From assembly GCF_036172515.1 (NCBI RefSeq), contig NZ_JAXKVW010000013.1, forward strand, positions 1 to 64,000: a stretch of 64,000 nucleotides of DNA, written 5' to 3'. How positions within the stretch are numbered: the first letter of the stretch is position 1; each line of letters starts with the position of its first letter. This document shows positions 8,741 to 64,000 of the stretch, piece by piece. The translations under genes were made by a program, and so were the position numbers. The stretch is from Flexistipes sp. (lineage in GTDB: Bacteria; Chrysiogenota; Deferribacteres; Deferribacterales; Flexistipitaceae). Under the pieces are notes generated by a model that saw nothing but the letters and a program-made list of their open reading frames with translations, was not told the DNA's origin and ran no database searches.

Positions 8741-9190
8741 CCTACACCACTCTTCCGTTTTTTTAATAGCTATGGCAATTTATTTGAGAAAATAGTGAAA
8801 CAGGGAGTGAGTTAGTGAGATAGTGAGAAAGTGAGGTAGCGAGATAGAAAAGTAGTAATTTGTTGAGTGGGATATTGGTATTAAGTGCTAAGTGCTAAGA
8901 GCAAAGGTTGAGGTTTAAGGTAAAGGTTGATGAAGTTGAATAGCTTGATATGATTGAGCGGAGAATCAGTGCAGTAAGTTTGGGTACCTTCGTAAAATTT
9001 AGCTATTTCAACGGACAAACTTTTTCCCAGTGAATAACTACGAATAACGAAGAATAACAATAAATAACTGTTCACTTTTACTAACATTAAACATTGAACA
9101 TTGCACTATCTCACACTCATCACGGATTACGCATAACGCATTATGGCATTTCCTGTTGAAATTTTATACTAAATATATAAATTATCTCAG
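8741..9190. repeat. Intergenic region built of dispersed low-complexity repeats
   Basis: No gene is seen in ~480 bases. In order: TTTTTTAATAGCTATGGCAAT (8758-8778), a purine-rich run of GTGAG/ATAGTGAG units (~8799-8860), a TAAGTGCTAAGTGCTAAG tandem (~8881-8899), and CACTCATCACGGATTACGCA (~9114). The same modules, in similar order, occur at 1842-1995, 13669-13790 and 15760-15910. Confidence 0.6.
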
Positions 9191-9220
9191 CGAAAAAATT
9201 AATATTACGGAGGCGTAAAA

Positions 9221-11101
9221 ATGGCGGAAACTGTTCAGTTTCAGGCAGAAGTTAAGGAACTTTTAAACCTTGTAATCAATTCTTTATATACGCATAAAGA
9301 GATATTTTTAAGGGAATTGATCTCCAATGCATCGGATGCCATCGATAAGGCAAAATATCTTTCAATAACCGATAAGTCCAACAATTTAGCCGGCACTGAA
9401 TGGAAAATAAAAATTAAATCGGATAAAGATGAAGGTACTATTACCATCTCAGACAACGGAATCGGCTTGAGCAGGGATGAAGCTGTGAAATCGCTGGGTA
9501 CAATAGCGCATTCGGGTACAAAGGAATTTATCAATGCTGTTAAATCTGGTCAGATAAAAGAACAACCGGAATTGATCGGACAATTCGGAGTAGGTTTTTA
9601 TTCGGCCTTTATGGTTGCTGACAATATAACTGTGATTTCCAAAAAAGTCGGCGAGGAAAAAGGAGTAAAATGGGAGTCGGCTGCCGATGGTACATTTACT
9701 GTGGATGATGCCGATAAGGAAAGTTTCGGCACAGATGTTACAGTTACTCTTAAAGAAGATGAAATGGAGTTTCTGGATGAATGGCGTATAAAGGAGATTG
9801 TAAAAAAATATTCCGACTATATCGAGTATCCGATAACTATGGATGTTGAAAAAGAGGATAAAGACGGTAATAAGTCCATTGAAGAGGAAACGCTGAATTC
9901 GATGAAGGCCTTGTGGCTGAAGGATAAGTCGGAAATAACGGAAAACGAGTACAATGAGTTTTACAAACATATTTCCCACGATTTTACCGATCCGCTGGAA
10001 ACCATACATTTCAAAGCGGAAGGGACTCAGGAATTTTCAGCACTTCTTTACATTCCATCTCATGCGCCTTTCGATATCTTTTACAAAGATTTCAAGTTCG
10101 GACCGGCATTGTATGTAAAAAAGGTTCAGATTATGGATCATTGTGAGGAGCTGATGCCTCCTTATCTCAGATTTATCAAAGGTGTCGTTGATTCCTCTGA
10201 TTTGCCCCTCAATGTTTCACGGGAGATTCTGCAAAATAACAGAAAAGTGGAAGTGATAAAAAAGAATATCACAAAGAAGGTTCTGGAAACATTAAAGAAA
10301 ATTAAAGAGAATGATAGCGAAAAATATGATAAGTTTATTAGTGAATTCGGCAAAATTCTCAAAGAGGGGATACACTACGATTTTAGCAGAAAAGAAGAGA
10401 TAGCGGGTTTGTTGACGTTTCATACAACCAAAACAGCTGCAAATGAAAAGATAGATTTCGATAAATATTTGGAGAATATGAAAGAGGAGCAGAAAGAGAT
10501 TTATTATATTTGCGGCGACAGTGTGGATGAGGTAAAAAATTCGCCATATTTGGAGCGTTTTAAGGACAAAGATGTTGAGGTCATATTTTTTACCGATGAA
10601 ATTGATGACATGATTATGAGCACCCTTGGTGAGTATAAGGGGAAAACTCTGAAATCCGTTTTAAAAGGTGATATCAGCCTGGATGAGGAAGAAAAAAAGG
10701 AAACTGAAAACAGAGAGAAAGAGCTGAAAGGCTTTCTTGATTCGATAAAAGATTATCTGAAGGGCAAAGTTAAAGATGTGAAAATTTCCAACAGATTGAA
10801 AGATTCACCTGCGTGTCTTGTGGTTGATGAAGATGCGATGGATCCTGCGATGAAAAAACTTCTGGAATCCATGGGTCAGGAAGTACCTTCTCAGGAAAAG
10901 ACACTGGAGATAAATGCGGAACATCCTGTTGTAAAGCAGCTGAAGGAAATATATGAAACCGATCCGAATAGCGGTACTGTAAGCGATTATATGGATTTAT
11001 TGTATAACCTGAGTCTCGTTGTGGAGGGAGAAAAGCCGGAAAATCCTTCTGATTTTGTCAAAAAACTATCAAATATGATGTCAAAAAGTCTGAAATCCTG
11101 A
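9221..11101 (+). CDS. htpG: Molecular chaperone HtpG (Hsp90)
   Basis: 626 residues, the normal bacterial Hsp90 length. N-terminal GHKL ATPase motifs: ELISNASDAIDKAKYLS, DNGIGLS, IGQFGVGFYSAFMVAD. The middle domain has GVVDSSDLPLNVSREILQ with the catalytic Arg loop, and the C-terminal dimerisation segment ends at KSLKS. Cytoplasmic ATP-driven chaperone. GGAGG upstream fixes the ATG. It stands alone, followed by a strong bidirectional terminator; no CIRCE-type element was seen upstream. Confidence 0.97.
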   Translation: MAETVQFQAEVKELLNLVINSLYTHKEIFLRELISNASDAIDKAKYLSITDKSNNLAGTEWKIKIKSDKDEGTITISDNGIGLSRDEAVKSLGTIAHSGTKEFINAVKSGQIKEQPELIGQFGVGFYSAFMVADNITVISKKVGEEKGVKWESAADGTFTVDDADKESFGTDVTVTLKEDEMEFLDEWRIKEIVKKYSDYIEYPITMDVEKEDKDGNKSIEEETLNSMKALWLKDKSEITENEYNEFYKHISHDFTDPLETIHFKAEGTQEFSALLYIPSHAPFDIFYKDFKFGPALYVKKVQIMDHCEELMPPYLRFIKGVVDSSDLPLNVSREILQNNRKVEVIKKNITKKVLETLKKIKENDSEKYDKFISEFGKILKEGIHYDFSRKEEIAGLLTFHTTKTAANEKIDFDKYLENMKEEQKEIYYICGDSVDEVKNSPYLERFKDKDVEVIFFTDEIDDMIMSTLGEYKGKTLKSVLKGDISLDEEEKKETENREKELKGFLDSIKDYLKGKVKDVKISNRLKDSPACLVVDEDAMDPAMKKLLESMGQEVPSQEKTLEINAEHPVVKQLKEIYETDPNSGTVSDYMDLLYNLSLVVEGEKPENPSDFVKKLSNMMSKSLKS

Positions 11102-42419: not shown

Positions 42420-42863
42420 CTAAATCCACTCATGTTTTTGTGAAAGTTCCACGACTTTCAATGCACAAAAAGCGGTGATATATGGACAGTGTTTGAATTT
42501 TCCGAATCCCAGCTTGCCAGCTGCATTTTTGGTTATAACTCTGCAGCAGGCTGACCCGTATTTCTTTTTAAATTCCTTCATAAAATTATTGCTTAAATCG
42601 AAAGCATTTTTATAGTTCTGTTTATTGTTTGTTCTCCCTTCAAAGGTGCTTATTACAAAGGTAACTGCCGAAGCAGCACCGCAAATACAGCCGTTAGATC
42701 CGATGCCTTCGGCAAAAGCTGTCATTCCTCTGTGTATTTCATCAGAGAATCTGTGGCCTGTAAATTTTTCGAAAGCCCTGACGATAATTTCAGAACAGAA
42801 ATACCCTCTTCTGAATTCATCCACTGCATATGAAGTGATTTCTTCCTTTAAATTTTTGTCCAA
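42420..42863 (-). CDS. C_GCAxxG_C_C family redox protein, second copy
   Basis: 147 residues. GYFCSEIIVRAFEKF (first Cys), GIGSNGCICGAASAVTFV (GCxCGAA core near residue 60), YGSACCRVITK, and C-terminal FKHCPYITAFCALKVVEL. Homologous to the protein at 139-567 but clearly diverged. The family likely carries a redox or metal site; role unknown. Divergent from the arsenic-cluster transferase at 42903 with only 39 bases between starts, so the two may share a control region. Confidence 0.83.
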   Translation of the reverse strand: MDKNLKEEITSYAVDEFRRGYFCSEIIVRAFEKFTGHRFSDEIHRGMTAFAEGIGSNGCICGAASAVTFVISTFEGRTNNKQNYKNAFDLSNNFMKEFKKKYGSACCRVITKNAAGKLGFGKFKHCPYITAFCALKVVELSQKHEWI

Positions 42864-42902
42864 CTTTAAGCCTCTTGTATATGCTTTTTTTTATCTGAAA
42901 AT

Positions 42903-43616
42903 ATGATATCTATTAGAGTTATGAAAAATAAAAAAGTTTCAATAATAATTCCCGTTTTCAAAGAATACAATATTGACCATTTTGTTGCCGTACTCCAGCG
43001 GAAAGTAAAGAATTTTAATGTGGAAATAGTTGTTGTGGACGGTGATAGCTCAGGTTCTACAATCTCCAGGCTTGAAAAGTACGATCTGAAAACAATTACA
43101 AGCGAAAAGGGCAGAGGTACTCAGCTTAAAAAAGGTGCTGAGCACTCAACAGGTGATCTTCTGCTCTTTCTTCATGCAGATACCGAACTTCCTGATAATT
43201 TTTATTCAGCTGTTACAGACACTTGTGACAAAATTTCTTCCTGCGGAGCCTTCAGCTTAAAAATTGATTCCGGCAAACATCTTTACAGAATAATAGAATT
43301 TTTTACGAATTTAAGGGCGAAATATTTGCAGATGCCTTTTGGGGATCAGGCAATCTTTGTGAAACGCGAGGCTTATTTTGAATCAGGAGGTTTTTTAGAG
43401 ATACCTGTTTTTGAAGATGTGGATCTTGTCAGGAAGTTAAAAAAAAGTGGAGCAAAGATTCATATTTTAAAAGAAACGGTGACAACATCTTCAAGAAGAT
43501 GGGAATCTGAAGGAATTTTAAAAGCAACGATGCGTAATTGGTATTTACAAATACTTTATTTTGTATTTAATATAAATCCACATTATCTTAAAAAGTTTTA
43601 CAGGAGTCAAAAATGA
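42903..43616 (+). CDS. GT2-fold transferase, rSAM/selenodomain-associated type 2
   Basis: 237 residues. KVSIIIPVFKE, then VEIVVVDGDSSGST (nucleotide-sugar motif), KGRGTQLKKGAEHSTGDLLLFLHADTELP with the DxD-like HADT, FGDQAIFVKREAYFESGGF, EDVDLVRKLKKSG and TTSSRRWESEGI. This pattern is diagnostic of the TIGR04283 group that co-occurs with selenodomain/ArsS radical-SAM proteins. Presumed glycosyl transfer to an arsenic compound or lipid. The start may be ATG 42903 or 42921; neither has a strong ribosome site. The stop overlaps the next ATG (ATGA). Confidence 0.88.
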   Translation: MISIRVMKNKKVSIIIPVFKEYNIDHFVAVLQRKVKNFNVEIVVVDGDSSGSTISRLEKYDLKTITSEKGRGTQLKKGAEHSTGDLLLFLHADTELPDNFYSAVTDTCDKISSCGAFSLKIDSGKHLYRIIEFFTNLRAKYLQMPFGDQAIFVKREAYFESGGFLEIPVFEDVDLVRKLKKSGAKIHILKETVTTSSRRWESEGILKATMRNWYLQILYFVFNINPHYLKKFYRSQK

Positions 43617-45595
43617 ATGAAGTGCAGAATACAATCAACAAAATCTCGCTAAAAAGGAAACAACTGTCAATCATACAAATAAATATGGGTAATCTTTGCA
43701 ATCACGCATGCAGCCACTGCCATATTGAGGCCTCTCCGGAGGGAGAGAATATAATGGATTATGATACTTCTGTTAAAGTTATTGAAAAACTTAAAAAAAT
43801 GAACATTGAAAATATAGAAATTACAGGCGGAACACCGGAAATGAACCCCAACTTCAGGATGTTTCTGGAAGAATTGGGAAATTTGAAAAAGTTAACTGTA
43901 AGATCTAGTCTGACAATACTGAACAGCAGTAAATACAGTCATTTTAAAGAACTTTATAAAAAATATAATGTTAAGATTATAGCTTCGCTGCCCAGCATTC
44001 TTGAGGATATAACAGACACCCAGAGGGGGAAGAATTATTATAAAACATCAATAAATGTTCTGAAAGATTTGAATGAAATTGGTTACGGAACAACACTGCC
44101 GTTGGATATTGTTTATAACCCTGCCGGTGATTATCTCCCGCCGGAACAGGTAAAACTCCAGAATGAATTCAGAAATTTCCTCGGTGAAAATTTCGGTGTG
44201 TCGTTCAATAAGCTATCGGCAATTGTTAATGTTCCCATTAAACGTTTTCGGGATTATCTTGTAAAGAACAACCGGTATGAAAATTATATCGATCTGCTTT
44301 TCAGTAATCATAACAAAGCCACATGGCAAAACGTAATGTGCCGGAGTTTGCTGACTGTCGGTCATGACGGCAGAATTTACGATTGTGACTTTAATTATGC
44401 ACTAAGGATACCTGTAAAGGGATTTGAGGACGTTTATTTCTGGGATATTGACCCGGATAATTTCGAATCTGAAATTATTGTAGGAGAGCACTGCCTTGCC
44501 TGTACTGTTAACAGGGGGAGCAGCTGCCACGGTGAATTGAAAAGTTTTGACACGGAAGAGGTGGTTAAAGGCTATTACGGCAGTACTCTGAGCTCCTCAA
44601 ACGATCTTAAAACTACTGCATGTTGCGATCTCGACGATATTCCCGAATATGTGAAAGATATTTCTCCGTTGATTGCCGATGAAATCCAGATGAAATTCTA
44701 CGGTTGCGGATCTCCAATTCCTCTGCATCTGGAAGGGTGCAGTGTGGTTGATTTGGGCTGCGGCACAGGAAGAGATTCTTATATAATATCCAAACTTGCA
44801 GGAGAACATGGAAGAGTGCTCGGTATAGACATGACGAATGAGCAGATAGATGTGGCCCGAAAATATGTCAATACCCAGATGAAAGCTTTCGGATATGAAA
44901 ACAAAAATGTAAAATTTGTGCATGATTATATAGAAAATGCATTGGAATATGTTTATTCCGGTTCTGCCGATGTGGTTATATCCAACTGTGTGATAAACCT
45001 GACTGAGGATAAGGGGAGGGTTTTGGATGATATTTATCGTATGCTGAAAAACGGCGGTGAGTTTTACTTTTCAGATGTTTATGCCGACAGGAGACTGCCG
45101 GATGATATCAGAAAAAATGATCTTCTTTATGCGGAATGTCTTGGCGGAGCTCTTTATATAAATGATTTTATGAGGCTTGCGCGCAAGGCGGGGTTTAATG
45201 ATCCAAGGGTTATGAATTTCCGTGAGATTGAGATTACAAATAAAAAGGTTAAAGACCTTGTGGGAAATGCAAGATTTTATTCCGTTACATACAGACTGTT
45301 TAAAATTGATGGACTGGAGGATGCCTGTGAAGATTACGGGCATGTGGCAATATACAAAGGCGAGCTGAAATATTCGGAAAACAAATTTATTCTGGATGAA
45401 GAACATGTTTTTGAAAAAAATAAGCCCGAGAGGGTTTGCGGCAACACAGCTCTTATGCTCAGCAAATCCAGATTTAGAAATTATTTTACAATTATAGGTG
45501 ATTTTGATGAGCATTTCGGAGCGTTTGAGGATTGCGGAGGAAAAATACAGGGTAAAGAGAATGTTGATAATACAGATAAAGGATGCTGCTGTTGA
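43613..45595 (+). CDS. ArsS (radical SAM) - ArsM (arsenite methyltransferase) fusion protein
   Basis: 660 residues, two complete enzymes in one chain. ArsS part ~1-318: radical-SAM cysteines C29, C33, C36 in CNHACSHCHIEASP, TGGTPEMNPNF, and the C-terminal DUF3641 block GRIYDCDFNYAL ... GEHCLACTVNRGSSCHGEL. ArsM part ~320-660: YYGSTLSSSNDLKTTACC, SAM motif VVDLGCGTGRD (~378), ISNCVINL, then the C-terminal ArsM extension with VCGNTALMLSKSRFRNYF, HFGAFEDCGG and a terminal KGCCC. ArsS is known to make a dimethylarsinoyl-deoxyadenosine from dimethylarsinate and SAM; ArsM supplies methylarsenicals. AGGAG upstream; start overlaps the previous stop. Confidence 0.9.
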   Translation: MNEVQNTINKISLKRKQLSIIQINMGNLCNHACSHCHIEASPEGENIMDYDTSVKVIEKLKKMNIENIEITGGTPEMNPNFRMFLEELGNLKKLTVRSSLTILNSSKYSHFKELYKKYNVKIIASLPSILEDITDTQRGKNYYKTSINVLKDLNEIGYGTTLPLDIVYNPAGDYLPPEQVKLQNEFRNFLGENFGVSFNKLSAIVNVPIKRFRDYLVKNNRYENYIDLLFSNHNKATWQNVMCRSLLTVGHDGRIYDCDFNYALRIPVKGFEDVYFWDIDPDNFESEIIVGEHCLACTVNRGSSCHGELKSFDTEEVVKGYYGSTLSSSNDLKTTACCDLDDIPEYVKDISPLIADEIQMKFYGCGSPIPLHLEGCSVVDLGCGTGRDSYIISKLAGEHGRVLGIDMTNEQIDVARKYVNTQMKAFGYENKNVKFVHDYIENALEYVYSGSADVVISNCVINLTEDKGRVLDDIYRMLKNGGEFYFSDVYADRRLPDDIRKNDLLYAECLGGALYINDFMRLARKAGFNDPRVMNFREIEITNKKVKDLVGNARFYSVTYRLFKIDGLEDACEDYGHVAIYKGELKYSENKFILDEEHVFEKNKPERVCGNTALMLSKSRFRNYFTIIGDFDEHFGAFEDCGGKIQGKENVDNTDKGCCC

Positions 45596-46233
45596 AATGT
45601 GCAAAGATTGTATTTGTGAAATATCCTGAGGCCGGAAATGTTAAAACGAGATTGGCTTCTGATTCATCAGACAACTTTGCGGTGGAAATTTATAGATTTT
45701 TACTAAACAGGTTGTTTTCTGAATTGAAAAATATTGAGGATGTTTACTGGTTTGTTTCCGGAAAAGAGAATGTGGAAAAATTTGCAAAAATTTCCGGATA
45801 TAAGAACATAAAAACTCAGACGGGAGAAAGTCTGGGGGAAAGAATGTATAATGCTTTTGAAAAGATATTTTCAGAAAAGACTTTTGACTGTGCTTTGCTT
45901 ATGGGCAGTGATATTCCGGGAATTTCCGAAAACCTGATAAAATACGGTGAGGAATCACTCAGAAATTATCATTACTGTCTGGGTGGATCGAATGACGGCG
46001 GTTATTATCTGATAGGTATGCAGAAAGGCTTTTTGAAGAAGGATATCTTTGAGGGTATAAAATGGAGTGGCCCTGATGTTTATTCTGATACACTGCAAAA
46101 GATAAATGAATCCGGAAGTGTTCAGTTATTGGAAACATTGAACGATGTGGATACATTGGAAGATCTTAAAAATGAAATGAAATATGATAAACAACTATCT
46201 TCTTTTGTGGAGCAAATGTATGAAAACTTATGA
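45583..46233 (+). CDS. DUF2064 transferase, rSAM/selenodomain-associated type 1
   Basis: 216 residues of the TIGR04282/DUF2064 group, a nucleotidyltransferase-like GT-A fold: KIVFVKYPEAGNVKTRLAS at the start, GESLGERMYNAFEKIF, LLMGSDIPGIS with the metal DxP, GGSNDGGYYLIGMQKG and LNDVDTLEDL. Regular partner of ArsS and of the type 2 transferase. Start at 45583 overlaps the ArsS-ArsM stop by 13 bases (TTG at 45592 is an alternative). The reaction is unproven; a sugar- or nucleotidyl-transfer to an organoarsenical is the usual inference. Confidence 0.87.
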   Translation: MLLLKCAKIVFVKYPEAGNVKTRLASDSSDNFAVEIYRFLLNRLFSELKNIEDVYWFVSGKENVEKFAKISGYKNIKTQTGESLGERMYNAFEKIFSEKTFDCALLMGSDIPGISENLIKYGEESLRNYHYCLGGSNDGGYYLIGMQKGFLKKDIFEGIKWSGPDVYSDTLQKINESGSVQLLETLNDVDTLEDLKNEMKYDKQLSSFVEQMYENL

Positions 46234-47626
46234 CTTGATTGTGCTGGGCGGAGGCTCGGCGGGACTCGTTGGGGCCAAACTTGCGAAAGGGCTGGGGAAA
46301 AGTGTACTCCTTGTGGAAAAACGTTACCTTGGAGGTGACTGCACATGGTACGGATGTGTACCCAGCAAAACACTTCTGAAATCTGCTTCTGTTGCAAAAC
46401 ATATACAGGACGCAGATGATTACGGAATAAAAGGTTATTTTGATAATGCTGATTCGGTGTTTGGGCATGTGCGGAAATTAAGAGCCGATGTTTATTCAGG
46501 GGAGACACCGGAAGTTTTCCAAAATGAAGGGATTGACGTAGTAACAGGAGAGCCTTTTTTCAAGAATGAAAATTCCATAAGGCTTAATGACAATAGTTAT
46601 ACCGCTAAAAAATTTTTGATTGCTACAGGCTCTTCCGCATTTGTTCCTCCGATAGCCGGGATAGAAGATGTGAAATATCTTACAAATGAGAGTGTCTTCG
46701 AGATTGAAAAACCTCCTGAATCCATTACTATTCTGGGCGGCGGTCCCATAGGGATAGAGATGGCTTTTGCTTTCAGACGTTTAGGAGTCAGTGTTAATGT
46801 GGTGGAGATGAGTGACAGAATACTTTTCAACGATGACAGCGAATTGACCGGAATTCTTCAAAAAACGATGGAAAACGAAGGGATAAATTTCTATCTGGAG
46901 ACAGAAGTTAAAGAGCTAAAAAAAGAAAAAAATGGTATACAGTGCATTGTGGAGAAAAAAGGTGAAAATTTTGGTATTTGCTCGGAAAGTTTGTTGGTGG
47001 CAACGGGGAGAAAACCAAATATTTTTGATATGAATCTGGAAAAATGCGGAGTCAGCTTCGATAAGAAAGGGGTTCATGTTAATAACCAGCTTCAGACGGA
47101 TAACAAGAATATTTATGCCGCCGGGGATGTTGTGGCTCCCTATAAATTTACTCACCTGGCCGAAAACCATGCTATTATTGCTGTTCAGAATATGTTTCTG
47201 CCTGTGAAAAAGAGTATTAATTACAAAACACTGGGCTGGTGTACATATACCGAACCTGAACTGGCTAAAACGGGATTGTCAGCTGTCCAAGCAAAACAGA
47301 AATACGGAGAAAATTTTCTGACATTCAGATTTCCCTTTGATAGTCTGGACAGGGCTGTAACAGATGGTACAAATACCGGGATGGCCAAAATTTTTACGGA
47401 TAAGTCATACAAAATTCTTGGTGCGACGATTCTTTCAGAGCGTGCCGGGGAGATAATAGCGGCGGTTCAGATTGCGATGGATAACAATGTACCGCTTTAC
47501 AGGCTGGACAGAATAATTTTTACTTATCCCACCTATGCGCAGTGTTTGAAATATCTTGCAAGAGCCGCATATATTCACAAAATAAACAATAATTTCTTTG
47601 TTAAGTTAATTAAGAAGTTTAAGTGA
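46220..47626 (+). CDS. MerA-like FAD/NAD(P) disulfide oxidoreductase
   Basis: 468 residues. FAD motif YDLIVLGGGSAGLVGAKLA, redox pair in GGDCTWYGCVPSKTL (CxxxxC), NAD motif ITILGGGPIGIEMAFAFRRLG, IYAAGDVVAPYKFTHLAENHA, and dimerisation domain with FTYPTYAQCLKYLARAAY (HPT/YPT site). It resembles the mercuric-reductase-like flavoproteins that pair with TVP38 proteins, but lacks the MerA N-terminal HMA domain and the C-terminal Cys pair, so mercury is unlikely to be the substrate. ATG at 46220 has TGGAG upstream and overlaps the previous gene by 14 bases. Confidence 0.87.
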   Translation: MKTYDLIVLGGGSAGLVGAKLAKGLGKSVLLVEKRYLGGDCTWYGCVPSKTLLKSASVAKHIQDADDYGIKGYFDNADSVFGHVRKLRADVYSGETPEVFQNEGIDVVTGEPFFKNENSIRLNDNSYTAKKFLIATGSSAFVPPIAGIEDVKYLTNESVFEIEKPPESITILGGGPIGIEMAFAFRRLGVSVNVVEMSDRILFNDDSELTGILQKTMENEGINFYLETEVKELKKEKNGIQCIVEKKGENFGICSESLLVATGRKPNIFDMNLEKCGVSFDKKGVHVNNQLQTDNKNIYAAGDVVAPYKFTHLAENHAIIAVQNMFLPVKKSINYKTLGWCTYTEPELAKTGLSAVQAKQKYGENFLTFRFPFDSLDRAVTDGTNTGMAKIFTDKSYKILGATILSERAGEIIAAVQIAMDNNVPLYRLDRIIFTYPTYAQCLKYLARAAYIHKINNNFFVKLIKKFK

Positions 47627-47762
47627 AAAGAGGTTATTAGAGGTTCTTGGAAGTAGTATGGGTATTATGGGTAGTAGGGGTCAATGTTGAATTCCCACTC
47701 AACTACTCAACCAATAAACAAATACACAAATATACCAATATGCCAATATAAGTAAGGAAAAA

Positions 47763-48461
47763 ATGATGAAAATTTTGATGAATAAAAAAACAGTTATAAT
47801 AATATTGTTTATTGCGGCGATAATCATACTGAGAAACTCTCCTCTGGCGGATTATCTGACTTTCGAAAATATCATTAAAAACAAAAACAGACTGTTACTA
47901 ATGGTAGAAAACAATTATTTTGCTTCTTCAATATCCTTTATCCTTATTTATTTTTTTGCCATAACATTTTCATTACCGGGTGCAGCTATTCTATCATTAG
48001 GCGGCGGGATGCTGTTTAATGTATTTCCGGGTGTATTTTATGTAAACATAGGGGCAACAGCAGGTGCGCTCATGGCTTTTATTGTTGCGAGATATCTGCT
48101 GGGTGGCAAAATTCAGGAAAAATATGCAGAAAGTTTAAAGAGATTCAACGTAGAACTTAAAACCAACGGACATTATTATCTGTTGACGCTCAGGTTAATA
48201 CCCGTTTTCCCTTTTTTTCTGATCAATTTTCTGGCAGGACTTACAAACATAAGAATCTGGACTTTTTTCTGGACTACGTCTTTGGGAATCTTACCCGGTT
48301 CTTTGGTCTATACATACGCTGGGCGCAATCTGGGCAGTATTGACAGTCCGGGGGAGATATTCAGTACGAAAGTAATTCTGGCTTTTACAGTGCTGGGATT
48401 ATTTGCAATTGTACCACCAGTCTTGAAGAAATTATTTGCAAAACAAAAACCGGAACTTTAA
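47763..48461 (+). CDS. TVP38/TMEM64 family membrane protein
   Basis: 232 residues with about five to six hydrophobic segments and the VTT/SNARE-associated signature: FSLPGAAILSLGGGMLFNVFPGVFYVNIGATAGALMAFIVARYLLG, then LLTLRLIPVFPFFLINFLAGLTNI and FFWTTSLGILPGSLVYTYAGRNLG. Such proteins often neighbour, or are fused to, MerA-like flavoproteins. Possible role in moving or scrambling a lipid-linked product; inference only. AGGA precedes ATG at 47763. The 136-base gap before it carries low-complexity repeat and no terminator. Confidence 0.87.
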   Translation: MMKILMNKKTVIIILFIAAIIILRNSPLADYLTFENIIKNKNRLLLMVENNYFASSISFILIYFFAITFSLPGAAILSLGGGMLFNVFPGVFYVNIGATAGALMAFIVARYLLGGKIQEKYAESLKRFNVELKTNGHYYLLTLRLIPVFPFFLINFLAGLTNIRIWTFFWTTSLGILPGSLVYTYAGRNLGSIDSPGEIFSTKVILAFTVLGLFAIVPPVLKKLFAKQKPEL

Positions 48462-48738
48462 TTGTATTGGCTATTGGTGTATTGGTTCAGCGGGCATCCA
48501 ATAAATACTTTTCTACCTTACTACTTCACCATTTCACCAAAAAATAATACGCCAGTTCCAAAAAGCAAGTATATCCTACTAAATTTTATTACTCTTTTGA
48601 CTACAATGTGGTATTAAAGGTGTAAACTTAGTGCTTAAAACTTAGTACTTAATACTGATAAGTTTGTTACTTTTTTGACTGCAACTTGGTACCATAGCAT
48701 TTTACGTCACGCTCTCCTTAATTAAAAATTTTAATGTA
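48462..48738. repeat. Intergenic low-complexity repeats
   Basis: No gene. GTATTGGCTATTGGTGTATTGG tandem-like start is followed by CTTACTACTTCACCATTTCACC (complement of the GTGAAATGGTGAAGTAGT units elsewhere) and CTTAGTGCTTAAAACTTAGT (~48629-48655), the same modules seen at 8.8, 15.8 and 54.3 kb. Confidence 0.5.
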
Positions 48739-49500
48739 TTATTTTTCGCCTAAAAAAGTTGCGCTGAATACTCCAAAATTTTCATCCTTGTTTAATTCCA
48801 GGCGTTCAATTTCCGGGATTTTTGAATTAAGCTTTTTTAACTCAACTATTTCCCCATCACTGAATCCTGCACTTTTTATTATATCCAGATATTCATTTTT
48901 ACTTATTGCACCGGCAACACATCCCACATACATTTCAACAGAACTTCTTATTTCAACGGGCATTTCCCCTTCGATGACGATATCGGAAATACAGAATTTC
49001 CCGCCCGGCTTTAAAATACGGTAGATTTCCTGGAACGCCTTGTTTTTGTCCGGAACAAGGTTGATGACACAATTGCTCATGACAATATCGGCTGTATTTT
49101 TATCCACAGGGATATTTTCTATATCACCCAAACGGAATTCAACGTTTTTGTAGCCTAATTTCTTTTTGTTTTCTTCGGCTTTTTTCAGCATCTCTTCCGT
49201 CATGTCTATTCCTATACAATACCCCTTTTCTCCAGTAAATCTGCGGGCAATAAAAAGATCGTTTCCTGCACCTGAACCGAGGTCTACAATTAAATCGCCT
49301 TGTTGTATATTTATGAAACGTGTGGGGATACCGCATCCTAAACCAAAATCGGCATCTTCCGTGTATCCGGGTTGGGTTGCATAGTCTTCTCCGGATACCA
49401 TTGGTTCACAGCCGCATCCGCCGGAAGAACAGCAGGAATCCGACTGGCGGGTTATTTCGCCGTATTTGTTTTTAATAAGTTCTTTTAGCTTGTCTGACAT
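48739..49500 (-). CDS. arsM: Arsenite methyltransferase
   Basis: 253 residues. N-terminal Cys-rich SDSCCSSGGCGCEP typical of ArsM, LGCGIPTRFINI, SAM motif IVDLGSGAGNDLFIARR, GIDMTEEML, IVMSNCVINLVPDK with a third conserved Cys, EMYVGCVAGAISKNEYLDIIKSAGF. Methylates As(III) with SAM to mono- and dimethyl forms. Compact form lacking the C-terminal extension present in the ArsM half of the fusion at 43613. Downstream of arsR with a 16-base overlap, so ArsR-regulated. Confidence 0.94.
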   Translation of the reverse strand: MSDKLKELIKNKYGEITRQSDSCCSSGGCGCEPMVSGEDYATQPGYTEDADFGLGCGIPTRFINIQQGDLIVDLGSGAGNDLFIARRFTGEKGYCIGIDMTEEMLKKAEENKKKLGYKNVEFRLGDIENIPVDKNTADIVMSNCVINLVPDKNKAFQEIYRILKPGGKFCISDIVIEGEMPVEIRSSVEMYVGCVAGAISKNEYLDIIKSAGFSDGEIVELKKLNSKIPEIERLELNKDENFGVFSATFLGEK

Positions 49501-49835
49501 TTAATACCTCCATTTTTACATGTATTGTTAAGAGTTATATTCTTCAGGAAAGCGTTTATTTCATTCTCAAACAGTTTAAACGCTTTTTCGTCAATGCAGT
49601 AACATACCCTTTGGCCTTCAATATTTCCTTTTATCAGACCGGCGTTTTTTAGTGTGCGAAGATGCTGAGATACTGTAGCCTGGGACAAAGGTAACACATC
49701 GACAATCCGGCCGCACATACATTCTCCGGATTCCGCAAGAAATTTAATGATCTGAATTCTCGCCGGATGACCAAGAGCTTTGGCAATGGCGGCCAGTTGT
49801 ATTTCATCTCCGCTGAATTTATCTTTTTTTATCAT
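49485..49835 (-). CDS. arsR: ArsR/SmtB-family arsenic-responsive repressor
   Basis: 116 residues with a winged helix-turn-helix: IAKALGHPARIQIIKFLAES, GECMCGRIVDVLPLSQATVSQHLRTLKNAGLI. The ECMCG pair at the start of the recognition region is the As(III)-type ligand site, and a further Cys lies in RVCYCIDE and at the tail (NTCKNGGIKC). It should bind the palindrome at 49852-49875 and release it with As(III). Operon arsR-arsM; divergent from cfa. Confidence 0.92.
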   Translation of the reverse strand: MIKKDKFSGDEIQLAAIAKALGHPARIQIIKFLAESGECMCGRIVDVLPLSQATVSQHLRTLKNAGLIKGNIEGQRVCYCIDEKAFKLFENEINAFLKNITLNNTCKNGGIKCQTS

Positions 49836-52697: not shown

Positions 52698-53282
52698 ATG
52701 AATGTTGATGCCAGAGGCAAAGAATGTCCAAAACCGGTGATAATGACTAAGAAAGCTCTGGATTCTCTTGAAGAAGGGATTGTTACAATACTGCTGGATT
52801 CTGAGATATCCAGGGATAATGTTTTAAAATTTGCACAGAGCCAGGGATTTTCGGCTGATGTAAGTGAAAAAAACGGTGAATTTACGATTGAAATTGCAAA
52901 AGGATTTACATGTTCCATTCCTGCAGCAAATCAGTCCGGAAAGACTGATAGTACAAAAGTTGTTTTATATGTAGGCAGCGAGTCTATCGGAAGCGGCGAC
53001 TGCGATCTTGGCAAGAAACTGATGGATAATTTTATTAAAAATATAGAAAATATGGATTATCTGCCTAAAACAATTATTTTCGTTAACAGCGGTGTTTTTT
53101 TAACCACCACAAATGACGAAACAATAAAAGCGTTGCAACAGCTAAAGGGGGTAAACATTTTAAGCTGCGGTACATGCCTGGAATATTTTAACCTGGAGGA
53201 TGATTTGCAGGTCGGAGAAGTTACCGATGCTTATACGGTAATGAAGAAGCTGTTCGATGCGGATAAGGTGATAAGGTTGTAA
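52698..53282 (+). CDS. yedF: Selenium metabolism protein YedF
   Basis: 194 residues. N-terminal TusA/SirA-like domain MNVDARGKECPKPVIMTKKAL with the CPxP Cys10; C-terminal DsrE-like domain (~75-194) with VVLYVGSESIGSGDCDLGKKLM and CGTCLEYF. This two-domain form regularly neighbours selD and is thought to bind or deliver a selenium/sulfur species. One base separates its stop from the selD ATG, so they are translated together. Confidence 0.9.
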   Translation: MNVDARGKECPKPVIMTKKALDSLEEGIVTILLDSEISRDNVLKFAQSQGFSADVSEKNGEFTIEIAKGFTCSIPAANQSGKTDSTKVVLYVGSESIGSGDCDLGKKLMDNFIKNIENMDYLPKTIIFVNSGVFLTTTNDETIKALQQLKGVNILSCGTCLEYFNLEDDLQVGEVTDAYTVMKKLFDADKVIRL

Positions 53283-53283
53283 G

Positions 53284-54312
53284 ATGATTAAATTGACACA
53301 TCTGGCAAAAGCTGCAGGCTGAGCGGCTAAAATAGGTCCGGAGGACCTGCAGAAGACACTCGAAGGCTTGAAGGTTTATAAAGACGATAACCTGCTGGTT
53401 GGATTTGAAACCAGCGATGATGCCGGTGTGTATAAAATTGCTGAAAACAAATACCTGGTGCAAAGTATTGATGTTATTACACCTGTGGTTGATGAGCCCT
53501 ATAACTTCGGCAGAATAGCGGCGGTTAACTCGTTGAGTGATCTTTATGCAATGGGGGGGAAACCTCTGACGGCTATGACGCTGTTAATGTACAACTGTGA
53601 TATTGCCGGCAGCATAATGCATGAGATTATGCAGGGAGCCTGCGATGAGCTTGGGAAAATCGGCTGTGTACTTGTCGGCGGGCATACTCTTGAAGACAAC
53701 GAGGTGAAATTCGGCCTTTCTGTTACAGGTATGATTGATGACGGGAAGATATTGAAAAATAACACTCTTAAACCCGGGGATGCGCTGGTATACACGAAGC
53801 CTTTGGGAATCGGTATTATAACAACAGCAATTAAAGGGGAAATGGCTGAGGAAGATGAAATATCAGATGTAACCGAGCTTATGCTTTTATCAAACCAAAA
53901 AGCATCTGAGATTATCAAAAATTATCCGGTGTCTGCATGCACCGATATAACGGGTTACGGTCTGGCCGGACATGCTTTGGAAATGTCTAAATTTTCGGGT
54001 TGCAGCATAAATTTCTTTACTGAAAAAATCCCTGTAATTGAGGGTGCTCTGAATTACGCCGAAATGGGAATAATCCCTGCAGGTGCCTATCATAACAGAC
54101 AGTTTGTTGCCCACCATTATTCTTTCAGTGAAAATCATAGAAATAAAGAAATGCTTATGTTTGATCCTCAGACTTCGGGTGGTCTGCTTATCGGGGTAAA
54201 TAGGAAGTACGCGGATGAGCTGGTTAATGAATTAAAAAGAAGCGGTTATAAAGACAGCTGTATAATCGGTGAAGCTGCGGATCTGTCTGATCATTATATT
54301 GTATTTGAATAG
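53284..54312 (+). CDS. selD: Selenide, water dikinase SelD, selenocysteine-containing
   Basis: 342 residues with UGA at codon 13 (53320-53322) read as selenocysteine: the N-terminus is MIKLTHLAKAAG-Sec-AAKIG, matching the family GU/C-x-x-K-I catalytic motif in which Sec or Cys acts with the following Lys. Then TSDDAGVYKI, NSLSDLYAMGGKPLTAMTLLM, VLVGGHTLEDNEVKFGLSVTG, ACTDITGYGLAGHALEM, MFDPQTSGGLLIGV. Makes selenophosphate from selenide and ATP for SelA. Ordinary gene finding would start after codon 13 and lose the active site. The reading frame is continuous apart from the one UGA; a SECIS-like hairpin follows. Confidence 0.95.
53320..53348 (+). promoter_or_regulatory. UGA-Sec codon and bacterial SECIS-like hairpin
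   Basis: UGA at 53320-53322 is followed 11 bases later by AGGTCC (53334-53339), loop GGA, GGACCT (53343-53348), a perfect 6-bp stem. Position and G in the small apical loop fit a bacterial SECIS read by SelB. Confidence 0.8.
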
Positions 54313-59660: not shown

Positions 59661-60773
59661 TTAAATCCTCCTGACTGAGTATTTGCCGTCCATATCGTAC
59701 TGAACCATACCTTTTAATTCCATCCCTGATAAAGTAGTGATTACCGTGGGAGCATTTTTACCGGAATGCATGCAGATTTCGTCTATTGAAAGCGGTTCAG
59801 TTTTTAAAATATTATAAATTTCCTTTTCTTCGCCCGAGTCAAAATTAATATTATAGTCATCATCTTTATTGTCAACCATTTTTGGAAAATTTAGGAATCT
59901 TGTAAACTCCTCCACAACATCCATATAATTTTCCGTTAATTTTGCTCCGTTTTTCAGGAGTTTGTTTGTGGCGCTGTTGTGATTTTTCGGCCATGCCGGT
60001 ACGGCAAATACCTCTCTGTTATTTTCAACAGCATAGCGTGCAGTAATAAGTGAGCCGCTTTTTTCCGAAGCTTCCACTACAATTACTCCCAGTGACAAAC
60101 CGCTTATGATTCTGTTTCTTTTTGGGAAATTGATTGCCAGAGGCTCCTCTTCAAGAGGAAACTCGGAGATTATGCAGCCGTTTTTCAGAATATCTTTCAT
60201 ATACTTTTTGTTGTAGCCGGGATAAACCTTTAACAGACCGTTGCCAAAAACGGCTGTTGTGTGCCCTTTGCTAATTGCACCGAGATGGGCATTGATATCT
60301 ATACCGGCAGCAAAACCGCTTACGACATTAAATCCGATTTCCGCAAGTTCAACTGATAGTTCAAATGCGAATTCTTTAGCGCTTTTACTGCATTTCCTTG
60401 CCCCTACAACTGCAATGGACGGATTCTCCAGTACACTGATATCTCCGTATGTATACAGATAAGCAGGAGGAGAATTTATTTCCTTTAACAAAGCCGGATA
60501 AAGATCATCTTCCCGGAGAATCATTCTTATTTTATATTTTCTGATTTTTTCCAGTTCATTTTTGAGAAATGTTTTCTCTACAGAGTAGTTCTTAATTGAG
60601 CCGATTTGACTGCTGCTGAAACCGGCATTGCTTAATGTTTCTGAGTCCATATTGAAAACACCATCAAGGCTGCCCGTTTTCCTGACAAGAGAATTTATTG
60701 AATTATCTGAGATACCTTTGATACTTTTTAAAGCGAGGTACTGCTCTATCAAATCAAAATTCTGCAGTTTCAT
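59661..60773 (-). CDS. dprA: DNA-processing protein DprA (Smf)
   Basis: 370 residues. N-terminal SAM-like segment, then Rossmann fold: VGARKCSKSAKEFAFELSVELAEIGFNVVSGFAAGIDINAHLGAI, GNGLLKVYPGYNKKYM, FPLEEEPLAINFPKRNRIISGLSLGVIVVEA, SGSLITARYAVENNREVFAVP. C-terminal winged helix (~300-370). Loads RecA on incoming single-stranded DNA. Start overlaps the selB end by 20 bases. Confidence 0.93.
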   Translation of the reverse strand: MKLQNFDLIEQYLALKSIKGISDNSINSLVRKTGSLDGVFNMDSETLSNAGFSSSQIGSIKNYSVEKTFLKNELEKIRKYKIRMILREDDLYPALLKEINSPPAYLYTYGDISVLENPSIAVVGARKCSKSAKEFAFELSVELAEIGFNVVSGFAAGIDINAHLGAISKGHTTAVFGNGLLKVYPGYNKKYMKDILKNGCIISEFPLEEEPLAINFPKRNRIISGLSLGVIVVEASEKSGSLITARYAVENNREVFAVPAWPKNHNSATNKLLKNGAKLTENYMDVVEEFTRFLNFPKMVDNKDDDYNINFDSGEEKEIYNILKTEPLSIDEICMHSGKNAPTVITTLSGMELKGMVQYDMDGKYSVRRI

Positions 60774-62619
60774 CCCCCTTTAAATACCGTTTGTTATCTT
60801 TATTAGTAAATAAACCCGTTTTGTCAAGCTGTTCGATTAAAGGGATAAGGATTTTCCGCGGTGCCTCAATGATTGTTTTTGCTTTCTTCAGATCGATGTA
60901 CTGCTCTTTCTTTGCGGTTTTTACAGCAAGCTGAATAAAATCATCAAAAATATCCGTTCTGATGAAATTTTTTTCATCCAGCTTTTTGACTTTTCCTTTG
61001 TTAGCCAGTATGGTGAGTGCATTTGCCGCCGCTTTTTCGGGAATATTTAAGAAGCTTGATAAATTTGCGGCATTGCTGAGGGATACGTCCTGAGACATTT
61101 TTTCATAGATTTCATCAGCAAGTTTTTCGTGTTCCGACTTTCTCTTTTTAAAAATTTTTTCGTTTTCGTATGTATAACCGTTTTTTTCAGCCAGGCGTAT
61201 GAGATTTTCCCTGAATATCTTCCAGATATTTTCACTGTTTTTAAAATATTTGTGATAGCCGCTCAGCGATACTGTTTTGCCGGAATATATCTCCTCTTTT
61301 GCCATATCTGTTATTTTTGAAAAGTATTTTCCGGGTGTCACTGTTCTGCCGGCTGAAATAAAATATTTTTTTATAAGATGTTTTATCTCGTCGCTTTTTT
61401 TATCCGTAAACTGTATCAGAGTCGGGATATCGAATGTCCCTTCAATGTTGGTTTCCAGTACTTTGAAAGCTTCTTCAGTTTTCCCGTTTTCCATACAGCT
61501 GAGGAAAGTGACCAGGTTATTTTTAGCCAGACCGAAATTGGTTATGGACAAAACCCTTCCGCCTGCAACGGTAATCTGAGGGCTTAGACTCCGTAGAAAG
61601 AATGCTTCACCGAATAGAGGAGTATAAGGTTTATCAGGGACAATTTTACATAGTGCACTTTCGCCGGCATTTAATGATTTTTTTCCCAGCAGTATAATTT
61701 TGGCTTCTCCCGCATAGGTGCCTATAAGAAATCTGTATGATTTATTATGTTTTATAACATCTCTTTTTGATATACTGCTGAATGTCTTTAGCCTCGCATA
61801 AAAAGATGCCGCAGGTGAAAACACTTTCGGAGCCGCCGCTATATCTCCCCGGTGAACGTTGCCCTTATCCACTCCTGTAACGTTTAATGCCGCTCTGTCT
61901 CCTGCAGAAGCTGAAAGGGAATTTTTTGAATGTACCTGTATGTTTTTCACTTTTGTTTGAATCCCGGCAGGGAGTATTTCTATATCATCACCCGTTTTTA
62001 TCCGACCGGTTATGCAGCTGCCCGTTACAACAGTACCGGCGCCTTTTACAGAAAAGCTTCTGTCTATTCTCATAAGAAAATCATGGGATGTATATTTGCT
62101 GCTTATCAACCCGGAGCACTCATACAGTGTTTTTTTCAGATTATCGATGGAGTGCTGATCGTATATACTTACTGTTAGAAACCTTTTATAAGGGTAGGTA
62201 AATCGGTTAAAAAACTCCCTTGCTTCAGACAACCGTCTGTTTAGCAGGGCTTCACTCACTTTATCGGCTTTTGTCAGCACGACTATCAGTGTTTCAATAT
62301 TTAAGACAGAAAGGATATCAGCATGTTCAATGGTTTGAGGTTTTATACCTTCAGTTGCATCCACGGCAAATAAAATAATATCTATGCCGGTGGCGCCTGC
62401 TATCATGTTTCTGATGAGTTTTTCATGACCGGGAACGTCCACAAAAGAGATTGTTGTTTTATCAATTTCAAGAGCTGCAAATCCGAGATCCAGCGTAATG
62501 CCTCTTTCCTGTTCTTCTTTGAACCTGTCCGGATGAACTCCCGTTAACCGTTCAACCAGGGCTGATTTGCCGTGGTCTATATGTCCCGCTGTTCCTACAA
62601 TGACATTTTGACGGCCCAA
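60754..62619 (-). CDS. selB: Selenocysteine-specific elongation factor SelB
   Basis: 621 residues. G1 GTAGHIDHGKSALVERLTG, G2 GITLDLGF, G3 DVPGHEKLIRNMIAGA, G4 VLTKADK; domains 2-3 to ~340 with SVKGAGTVVTGSCITG; C-terminal winged helices (~380-621) that bind the SECIS. Delivers Sec-tRNA to UGA. The start is TTG at 62619 with GGAGG 6 bases upstream; it lies within selA's 3' end (25-base overlap). Confidence 0.95.
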   Translation of the reverse strand: MGRQNVIVGTAGHIDHGKSALVERLTGVHPDRFKEEQERGITLDLGFAALEIDKTTISFVDVPGHEKLIRNMIAGATGIDIILFAVDATEGIKPQTIEHADILSVLNIETLIVVLTKADKVSEALLNRRLSEAREFFNRFTYPYKRFLTVSIYDQHSIDNLKKTLYECSGLISSKYTSHDFLMRIDRSFSVKGAGTVVTGSCITGRIKTGDDIEILPAGIQTKVKNIQVHSKNSLSASAGDRAALNVTGVDKGNVHRGDIAAAPKVFSPAASFYARLKTFSSISKRDVIKHNKSYRFLIGTYAGEAKIILLGKKSLNAGESALCKIVPDKPYTPLFGEAFFLRSLSPQITVAGGRVLSITNFGLAKNNLVTFLSCMENGKTEEAFKVLETNIEGTFDIPTLIQFTDKKSDEIKHLIKKYFISAGRTVTPGKYFSKITDMAKEEIYSGKTVSLSGYHKYFKNSENIWKIFRENLIRLAEKNGYTYENEKIFKKRKSEHEKLADEIYEKMSQDVSLSNAANLSSFLNIPEKAAANALTILANKGKVKKLDEKNFIRTDIFDDFIQLAVKTAKKEQYIDLKKAKTIIEAPRKILIPLIEQLDKTGLFTNKDNKRYLKGDETAEF

Positions 62620-63971
62620 TCTATTCCTCCGGCTATATCCTCATATTCCTCTTTAGAAATTGTACGCAGATCTAATATGATCTTCTTATCGGCCGTTCGG
62701 CAGATAACGGGCGGGGAGAATTCCCTCAGATGTTTTTCAATTTCAGCTTCGCTTATGCTGCCTGTATTCAGCTGTACGGCATAGGAGTTTATTTCCTGCA
62801 TCGGACAGCTGCCACCGCCGGTGAATGAAGTGACCTGGACTACTTCCAGTCTCAAATCAGGGTTCAGATTGTTAATAATCCGTGCCAGATCATCGCCCCT
62901 TGATTTTAAAGAATCCAGACTTTCATTAAACATTTTTAGTGTTCTGATTTTTTCGTAATCCTCATTTATATATTCCTTTAAAGTATTTTGAAGGAGTGAA
63001 AGTGTAATTTTATCCACCCGCAGCATACGCATCAGCTGATTTCCTTTTAATTTGTCAATCAGATGTTTTTTGCCTGCGATGATACCTGCCTGAACGCCGC
63101 CTAAGAGCTTATCACCGCTGAAACTTACCAAATCGAAACCTTTATCGATAACATCTTTCACCGGAGGCTCATCGCAGAATTTGAGACCGAAATCGGATAT
63201 CAAACCGCTTCCCAAATCATAATAACTTATCAGATCATTTTTATCAGCCAGTTGACAGATTTGTTCACACGGGGGTTCTTCTGTAAATCCTTTTATTACA
63301 TAATTACTTTTGTGTACTTTCATAATAACCGATGTTTCGGGACTGACCGCATTTTCGTAATCGGTAATTTTTGTTTTGTTTGTAGTGCCTACTTCCTGCA
63401 GTTTTGCTCCGCTCTTTCTCATCACTTCGGGTATTCTGAAGCTGCCGCCTATTTCTACAAGCTCTCCCCTGGAGACGATGCATTCACGGTTTTCGGCAAA
63501 TGTATTCAGTATGAGGAAAACAGCAGCTGCATTATTGTTCAGTATAAGAGCATCTTCTGCCCCGGTAAGATATTTTAAATATTCAGAGAGGTGGTGATAT
63601 CTGTCCCCCCTGCTTCCTGCATCAATATCATACTCAAGATTGGAGTATCCGCATACAGTCTCCATGCTTTTTTTAAATAAATCGCCGGATAGAGGAGAGC
63701 GACCGAGATTTGTATGTATTACAATGCCTGTGGCATTTATCACATTTTTTATAGAGCCCTGCATAAAGTTTTCACAGGATGACATTATATTATTTATCAC
63801 CTTGTCCTTGTGGATAATATCGATTTTTCCCTCTGAAATTTTTTCCCGGAGATTTGAAAGGACTTTGTCAGCACAGTATTTAACGACACTTCTGTTATAG
63901 TTATGGCTGCTGAGCTGTTCCATGATTTCGTGCATCTGGGGAATTTGACTGTAAAGTTCCTGTTTAGACAA
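62595..63971 (-). CDS. selA: L-seryl-tRNA(Sec) selenium transferase SelA
   Basis: 458 residues. GIVIHTNLGRSPLSGDLFKKSMETVCGYSNLEYDIDAGSRGDRYHHL, NNNAAAVFLILNTFA, SYYDLGSGLISDFG, and the PLP lysine in LVSFSGDKLLGGVQAGII. Converts Ser-tRNA(Sec) to Sec-tRNA(Sec) with selenophosphate. Start taken as TTG at 63971 (AGGAGG 6 bases upstream, family-like N-terminus). First gene of the selA-selB-dprA-smg-topA-trmFO-xerC run. selC was not found in the window. Confidence 0.95.
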   Translation of the reverse strand: MSKQELYSQIPQMHEIMEQLSSHNYNRSVVKYCADKVLSNLREKISEGKIDIIHKDKVINNIMSSCENFMQGSIKNVINATGIVIHTNLGRSPLSGDLFKKSMETVCGYSNLEYDIDAGSRGDRYHHLSEYLKYLTGAEDALILNNNAAAVFLILNTFAENRECIVSRGELVEIGGSFRIPEVMRKSGAKLQEVGTTNKTKITDYENAVSPETSVIMKVHKSNYVIKGFTEEPPCEQICQLADKNDLISYYDLGSGLISDFGLKFCDEPPVKDVIDKGFDLVSFSGDKLLGGVQAGIIAGKKHLIDKLKGNQLMRMLRVDKITLSLLQNTLKEYINEDYEKIRTLKMFNESLDSLKSRGDDLARIINNLNPDLRLEVVQVTSFTGGGSCPMQEINSYAVQLNTGSISEAEIEKHLREFSPPVICRTADKKIILDLRTISKEEYEDIAGGIDWAVKMSL

Positions 63972-64000
63972 AAGATTCCTCCTGTGATGTCTCAATATAA

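Follow-up and report, generated by a model that had tools for sequence, protein, structure and literature searches.

A single gene of Flexistipes sp. joins the radical SAM enzyme ArsS to the methyltransferase ArsM, and its product is probably (about three chances in four, by analogy with characterised relatives) a bifunctional enzyme of an arsenosugar-type pathway, which would carry arsenite through dimethylarsenite to a deoxyadenosyl arsenical. The C-terminal ArsM half would methylate arsenite with SAM to dimethylarsenite, and the N-terminal ArsS half would use its [4Fe-4S] cluster to cleave SAM reductively and place the 5'-deoxyadenosyl group onto arsenic. The fusion would hold the reactive, toxic trivalent dimethylarsenical beside the acceptor enzyme, and the co-transcribed transferases, thiol flavoprotein and membrane protein would act downstream or in support. 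Both chemical steps and their order are modelled on relatives: ArsS and ArsM of Synechocystis are reported to act together at the start of arsenosugar synthesis (PMC8552651), and ArsS is described in a review as adenosylating arsenic (PMC12159101). Channelling in cis is plausible. We infer the role of each neighbouring gene and the final product, which may be glycosylated, as gene context and the NCBIfam names suggest, and might, more speculatively, carry a lipid link.

The window, that is, the whole stretch of 64,000 nucleotides analysed here, contains the fusion gene as a single open frame on the plus strand (43613-45595), which encodes 660 amino acids and has no internal stop. The ArsS half (residues 13-309; 43649-44539) is matched at equivalog level and over its full length by the ArsS model TIGR04167 (341 bits against a cut-off of 300; model positions 2-303 of 303). 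Its radical SAM core carries the CxxxCxxC motif (C29/C33/C36) and is followed by DUF3641 (residues 175-307 according to Pfam; 44135-44533), with a five-cysteine tail (C243, C258, C294, C297 and C305, invariant in A1) whose sequence is GEHCLACTVNRGSSCHGE. An AlphaFold2 model of the fusion from single-sequence input reached a pLDDT of 34 and was discarded. In the selenoprotein form of ArsS, GxxU is the Sec site (PMC13188914); the Flexistipes sp. gene has no in-frame TGA at this position and reads a Cys codon in GSSC. The "selenodomain" label of the earlier note is the older family name, attached here to an ArsS with Cys, not Sec, at GxxU. Flexistipes sp. nevertheless appears to decode Sec, though its ArsS uses Cys. 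The SelD gene of the window (53284-54312) has a TGA at 53320 that is read through (AAGUAAK) and probably encodes a selenoprotein, the listed ORF start at 53368 missing the true start; a YedF gene (52698-53282) and selB with selA (60754-63995) are also present.

The ArsM half (residues 313-660; 44549-45592) is of the AS3MT/CmArsM type. The Chlamydomonas-type PDB ArsM 5evj aligned with fusion residues 316-645 at 340 bits (E 2.8e-100; 5evj positions 25-357), CmArsM (4fr0/4kw7) at 300 bits and 8xt7 at 249 bits, so that the similarity is full-length and includes the C-terminal domain. C337, C365, C459 and C509 align with C44, C72, C174 and C224, the arsenic-handling cysteines of CmArsM, and all four are kept. 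Together with TIGR04167 and DUF3641, these matches confirm that a complete ArsS is joined to a full-length ArsM on one 660-residue chain, and the KGCCC tail that had been claimed for ArsM was also found. The NCBIfam ArsM models miss this half, since it scored 165 bits on NF008823 (cut-off 263) and 98 bits on the cyanobacterial model NF038099 (cut-off 400), and it is therefore filed in neither. A second ArsM of 253 amino acids (48739-49500, minus strand) is a canonical bacterial one (NF008823, 301 bits, cut-off 263); it differs in type from the fusion ArsM, reaching only 116 bits with 5evj. It is accompanied by the ArsR/SmtB regulator of the arsRM unit (49485-49835, minus strand; NF033788, 77.5 bits, cut-off 55).

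ArsS was detected in 58 of 385 sampled genomes, and five of these 58 carry a fusion, a rarity which indicates that joining ArsS to ArsM is not required. A survey for the same fusion and gene order, proposed earlier as a check, found it, neighbours included, in G192 (53% identity) and G125 (48%; the contig ends inside the gene), which belong to two small candidate phyla with three and five sampled genomes. The reverse order, ArsM-ArsS, occurs in two genomes (G188 and G389); phylum-centred searches around G192, G125, G188 and G079 covered 3-5 genomes each. The tree of ArsM halves unites Flexistipes sp. and G192 in a clade (100/99) and places G125 with fusions to rSAM_X, a further radical SAM family treated below (98/96). 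A single origin of the three ArsS-ArsM fusions was rejected by the ArsM halves (AU p=0.007), as was the grouping of the six N-terminal fusions of AS3MT-type ArsM into a single clade (AU p=0.010), both values being somewhat optimistic as the tested groups were named after the first tree had been seen. The tree of ArsS halves agrees, placing G125 with other ArsS proteins, apart from Flexistipes sp. and G192. Judging from these trees, the fusion of ArsM with a radical SAM enzyme arose more than once. A genome-collection scan with the fusion protein as single query returned one relative, of ArsM only, and no fusion relatives were found in viral contigs. The long ArsM frames of G601, considered as another fusion, proved to be read-through of an upstream open frame without a domain. 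No description of an ArsS-ArsM fusion was found in the open-access literature, and within the literature searched both the fusion and the exchange of its radical SAM partner are new, the cluster itself being known.

Since ArsM has repeatedly been joined to radical SAM enzymes, and in both orders, we suggest a coupling of the two steps in the synthesis of arsenic-containing sugars, presumably on account of the reactive intermediate. The most serious alternative, to which we give a substantial minority share of our confidence, is that the halves work independently, no intermediate passing between them, and that the fusion serves only to fix their ratio and co-expression. Consistent with this, most ArsS-bearing genomes keep the genes apart, in some cases non-adjacent (an ArsM of any type lies near 17 of 50 ArsS loci), and the linker between the halves has about 7 residues without an extra docking domain. 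However, fusions in both orders, with different radical SAM partners and on more than one occasion, go beyond an accident of co-expression and argue for the coupled, bifunctional enzyme.

The neighbours of the fusion are those of an arsenosugar-type cluster, with both transferases adjoining ArsS and above their cut-offs. A family 2 glycosyltransferase of TIGR04283 (arsenosugar biosynthesis; 42903-43616, plus strand, 237 aa; 227 bits, cut-off 182) overlaps the start of the fusion by 4 nt, and the fusion overlaps by 13 nt a DUF2064/CofC-like transferase of TIGR04282 (45583-46233, plus strand, 216 aa; 166 bits, cut-off 134). The latter in turn overlaps a MerA-like FAD disulfide oxidoreductase (46220-47626, plus strand), whose ORF opens at 46184 with a likely start at 46220 and whose redox pair is CTWYGC (CxxxxC). 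The TVP38/VTT-domain membrane protein (47763-48461, plus strand, 232 aa; PF09335, 94.8 bits) follows 137 nt beyond the flavoprotein and ends a plus-strand row of mostly overlapping genes. The overlapping or adjacent arrangement of the two transferases and TVP38 had been predicted correctly, and the flavoprotein was present as described but is not MerA proper, given its TIGR02053 score of 344 bits, below the cut-off of 454, and its C-terminus KLIKKFK, without the Cys pair expected of MerA. The earlier note had drawn the cluster from 42420 to 49835; the fusion operon stands, but a divergent C_GCAxxG_C_C redox protein gene (42420-42863, minus strand; NCBIfam/Pfam models), of uncertain membership in the system, and the convergent pair of arsR and the second arsM lie outside it. 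The cluster is of a known kind, as NCBIfam already names most of its members ("arsenosugar biosynthesis glycosyltransferases"). Family models, neighbours conserved in many phyla and repeated independent fusions bear out a dedicated arsenosugar-type cluster built on the fusion; the claim as a whole, with the product beyond, holds in part.

Conservation of the neighbourhood was assessed at 50 ArsS loci outside the Flexistipes sp. genus, from a broad bacterial sample, with 19 control stretches from comparable genomes. TVP38 occurred near ArsS in 26/50 loci, the flavoprotein in 25/50, TIGR04283 in 22/50 and TIGR04282 in 20/50, against 0/19 controls for each, the profile thresholds having been set above the control scores. 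The gene cluster around ArsS is not due to chance. A canonical ArsM, unlinked, was present in one control stretch. A DUF547 protein was found in 14/59 cluster loci and in none of the controls (for example L060:7204-7920 and L179:5854-6648), and it recurs in arsenosugar-type clusters of both the ArsS and the rSAM_X kind. TIGR04282 and TIGR04283 are fused to each other, in either order, in several loci (L060:12158-13432, L063:5312-6703 and the L091, L144 and L146 regions), and in several loci a fusion also joins TVP38 to the flavoprotein. An enzyme of the MTA-phosphorylase type (MTAP-type) is encoded in four cluster loci, and the phosphorylase genes adjoin both ArsS and rSAM_X, which hints at the hypothesis that both enzymes make an adenosyl arsenical that is later cleaved at the purine.

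The same phosphorylase could simply cleave the adenosyl arsenical in some clusters, and the names of TIGR04282 and TIGR04283 rest on gene context, with no tested enzyme found. These observations would fit a product made simply for detoxification or export, either a deoxyadenosyl arsenical or a cleaved arsenoribose, with transferases that are not dedicated to the pathway. We consider this rather unlikely, because both transferases accompany ArsS and rSAM_X in many phyla, even fused together, and were absent from all 19 controls.

The known ArsS pathway runs through dimethylated arsenic. An improbable variant would have the radical half act first, on arsenite or methylarsenite, and ArsM afterwards, as ArsL and then ArsM do for arsinothricin, where a radical SAM step that comes first provides the precedent (PMC8552651). 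However, the radical SAM half is a TIGR04167 ArsS and not of the ArsL-type family, and the ArsS pathway is reported, as cited in the same paper, to begin with ArsM and ArsS together, which favours methylation before adenosylation.

In the close relative G015, of the same genus and taken as Flexistipes sinusarabici, a one-base deletion in an A run splits the ArsS half (L078:10478-10837 and 8856-10373). Between Flexistipes sp. and F. sinusarabici, dN/dS was 0.088 for the ArsS half and 0.204 for the ArsM half; within the G015 ArsS codons it was 0.111 before the break and 0.073 after it, with no other stop. The fusion is under purifying selection, which is strong in the ArsS codons both before and after the break. 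Because dN/dS is low on both sides and no other stop occurs, the break is either a recent pseudogene or a sequencing (homopolymer) error; in the former case, the intact fusion may be missing from one or more close relatives. That two separate genes only seem fused, through an error of assembly or frame, is very improbable despite this broken sister frame and the merely apparent long frame of G601, as the G015 break lies within the ArsS half, away from the domain junction, complete frames with both domains are also present in G192 and G125, no stop separates the domains, and a GTG at the junction (44560) that resembles a start codon is directly abutted by the nearest purine-rich stretch, too close for a usual ribosome-binding site.

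ArsM is also fused to, or overlaps, a radical SAM family other than ArsS in the same gene setting. In three genomes of Deferribacterales from another family than Flexistipes sp. (G012-G014), which lack ArsS, ArsM is fused to rSAM_X in the same cluster, with TVP38, flavoprotein and fused transferases, and unfused rSAM_X directly adjoins ArsM in five more (G332, G266, G379, G521 and G528). Loci with rSAM_X beside or fused to AS3MT-type ArsM are L060-L062, L065, L070, L089 and L122-L124. Among the nine rSAM_X loci, AS3MT-type ArsM was present in eight, and flavoprotein, TVP38 and TIGR04282 each in six. rSAM_X has no DUF3641, and its scores stay below the cut-off of every NCBIfam radical SAM model. 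The cysteines of its tail, MC-x-C...C-x2-C-x6-C, are arranged as in ArsS; the strict pattern was present in 42/52 ArsS, 6/9 rSAM_X, 0/10 MoaA and 0/7 SPASM-fusion proteins, and the ArsS proteins that miss it mostly retain the cysteines, with Phe or His replacing one Tyr. The profile match of rSAM_X to ArsS lies mainly over the radical SAM core, where MoaA matches too, less strongly; it is only the cysteine tail that would group rSAM_X with ArsS. More distant rSAM_X-like proteins are mostly not near ArsM, so the wider family is mixed.

A third partner is found in radical SAM/SPASM-ArsM fusions of about 840 residues (G079, G118, G200, G226, G246, G338, G377 and G220). At their loci (L071-L076, L127 and L195) a weak PqqD-like start, below the Pfam cut-off, precedes radical SAM/SPASM and AS3MT-type ArsM; L074 and L076 have lost several SPASM cysteines. 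DUF3641 was present in 7/7 ArsS genomes and absent from 16/16 genomes with rSAM_X or SPASM fusions, an absence of ArsS in the predicted direction that is weak alone, given the base rate of 58/385 and the incompleteness of some genomes. With evenly divided confidence, we propose that AS3MT-type ArsM may be a hub joined to interchangeable radical SAM enzymes, namely ArsS (at least twice, in both orders), rSAM_X and radical SAM/SPASM, that rSAM_X may be an unnamed functional replacement of ArsS, given the shared layout of the five-cysteine tail and the gene neighbours, and that some partners may attach a different group, yielding organoarsenicals not yet known.

Arsenosugar-type chemistry is known mainly from algae and cyanobacteria, and our results suggest that it is also encoded in anaerobic and candidate-phylum bacteria. 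The survey widens the set of likely C-As bond-forming enzymes by at least two more families of radical SAM proteins, which take the position of ArsS next to the same ArsM, and a single chain with both activities would make the passage of the unstable, toxic trivalent dimethylarsenical from ArsM to ArsS directly assayable.

Among known systems, ArsS and ArsM of Synechocystis sp. PCC 6803 share the ArsS family (TIGR04167/DUF3641) and a partner ArsM with the fusion, and in a cyanobacterial plasmid copy (Pseudanabaena) MerA-like and TVP38 proteins adjoin ArsS as in Flexistipes sp. However, the cyanobacterial ArsS and ArsM are separate proteins, and the Flexistipes sp. ArsM belongs to the AS3MT/CmArsM type. 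The ArsM half aligns over almost its whole length with CrArsM/CmArsM/AS3MT-type enzymes (5evj, 4fr0 and 8xt7), key cysteines included, but these lack a radical SAM domain, and in the fusion ArsS replaces their extreme N-terminus. The Acinetobacter portensis plasmid pJNE5-X3_NDM-1 (L179) carries, in one run, ArsS, the two transferases, TVP38/flavoprotein and a methyltransferase of the AS3MT type that is 51% identical to the Flexistipes sp. ArsM half. ArsS and ArsM are separate there, and genes for DUF547, a phosphate transporter and MTA phosphorylase are added; this complete, unfused cluster lies near transposition genes on a mobilizable resistance plasmid. The ArsL-ArsM pair of arsinothricin likewise applies a radical SAM enzyme and ArsM in sequence to one arsenic atom, but ArsL belongs to a different radical SAM family, transfers an aminocarboxypropyl group, acts first and is a separate protein.
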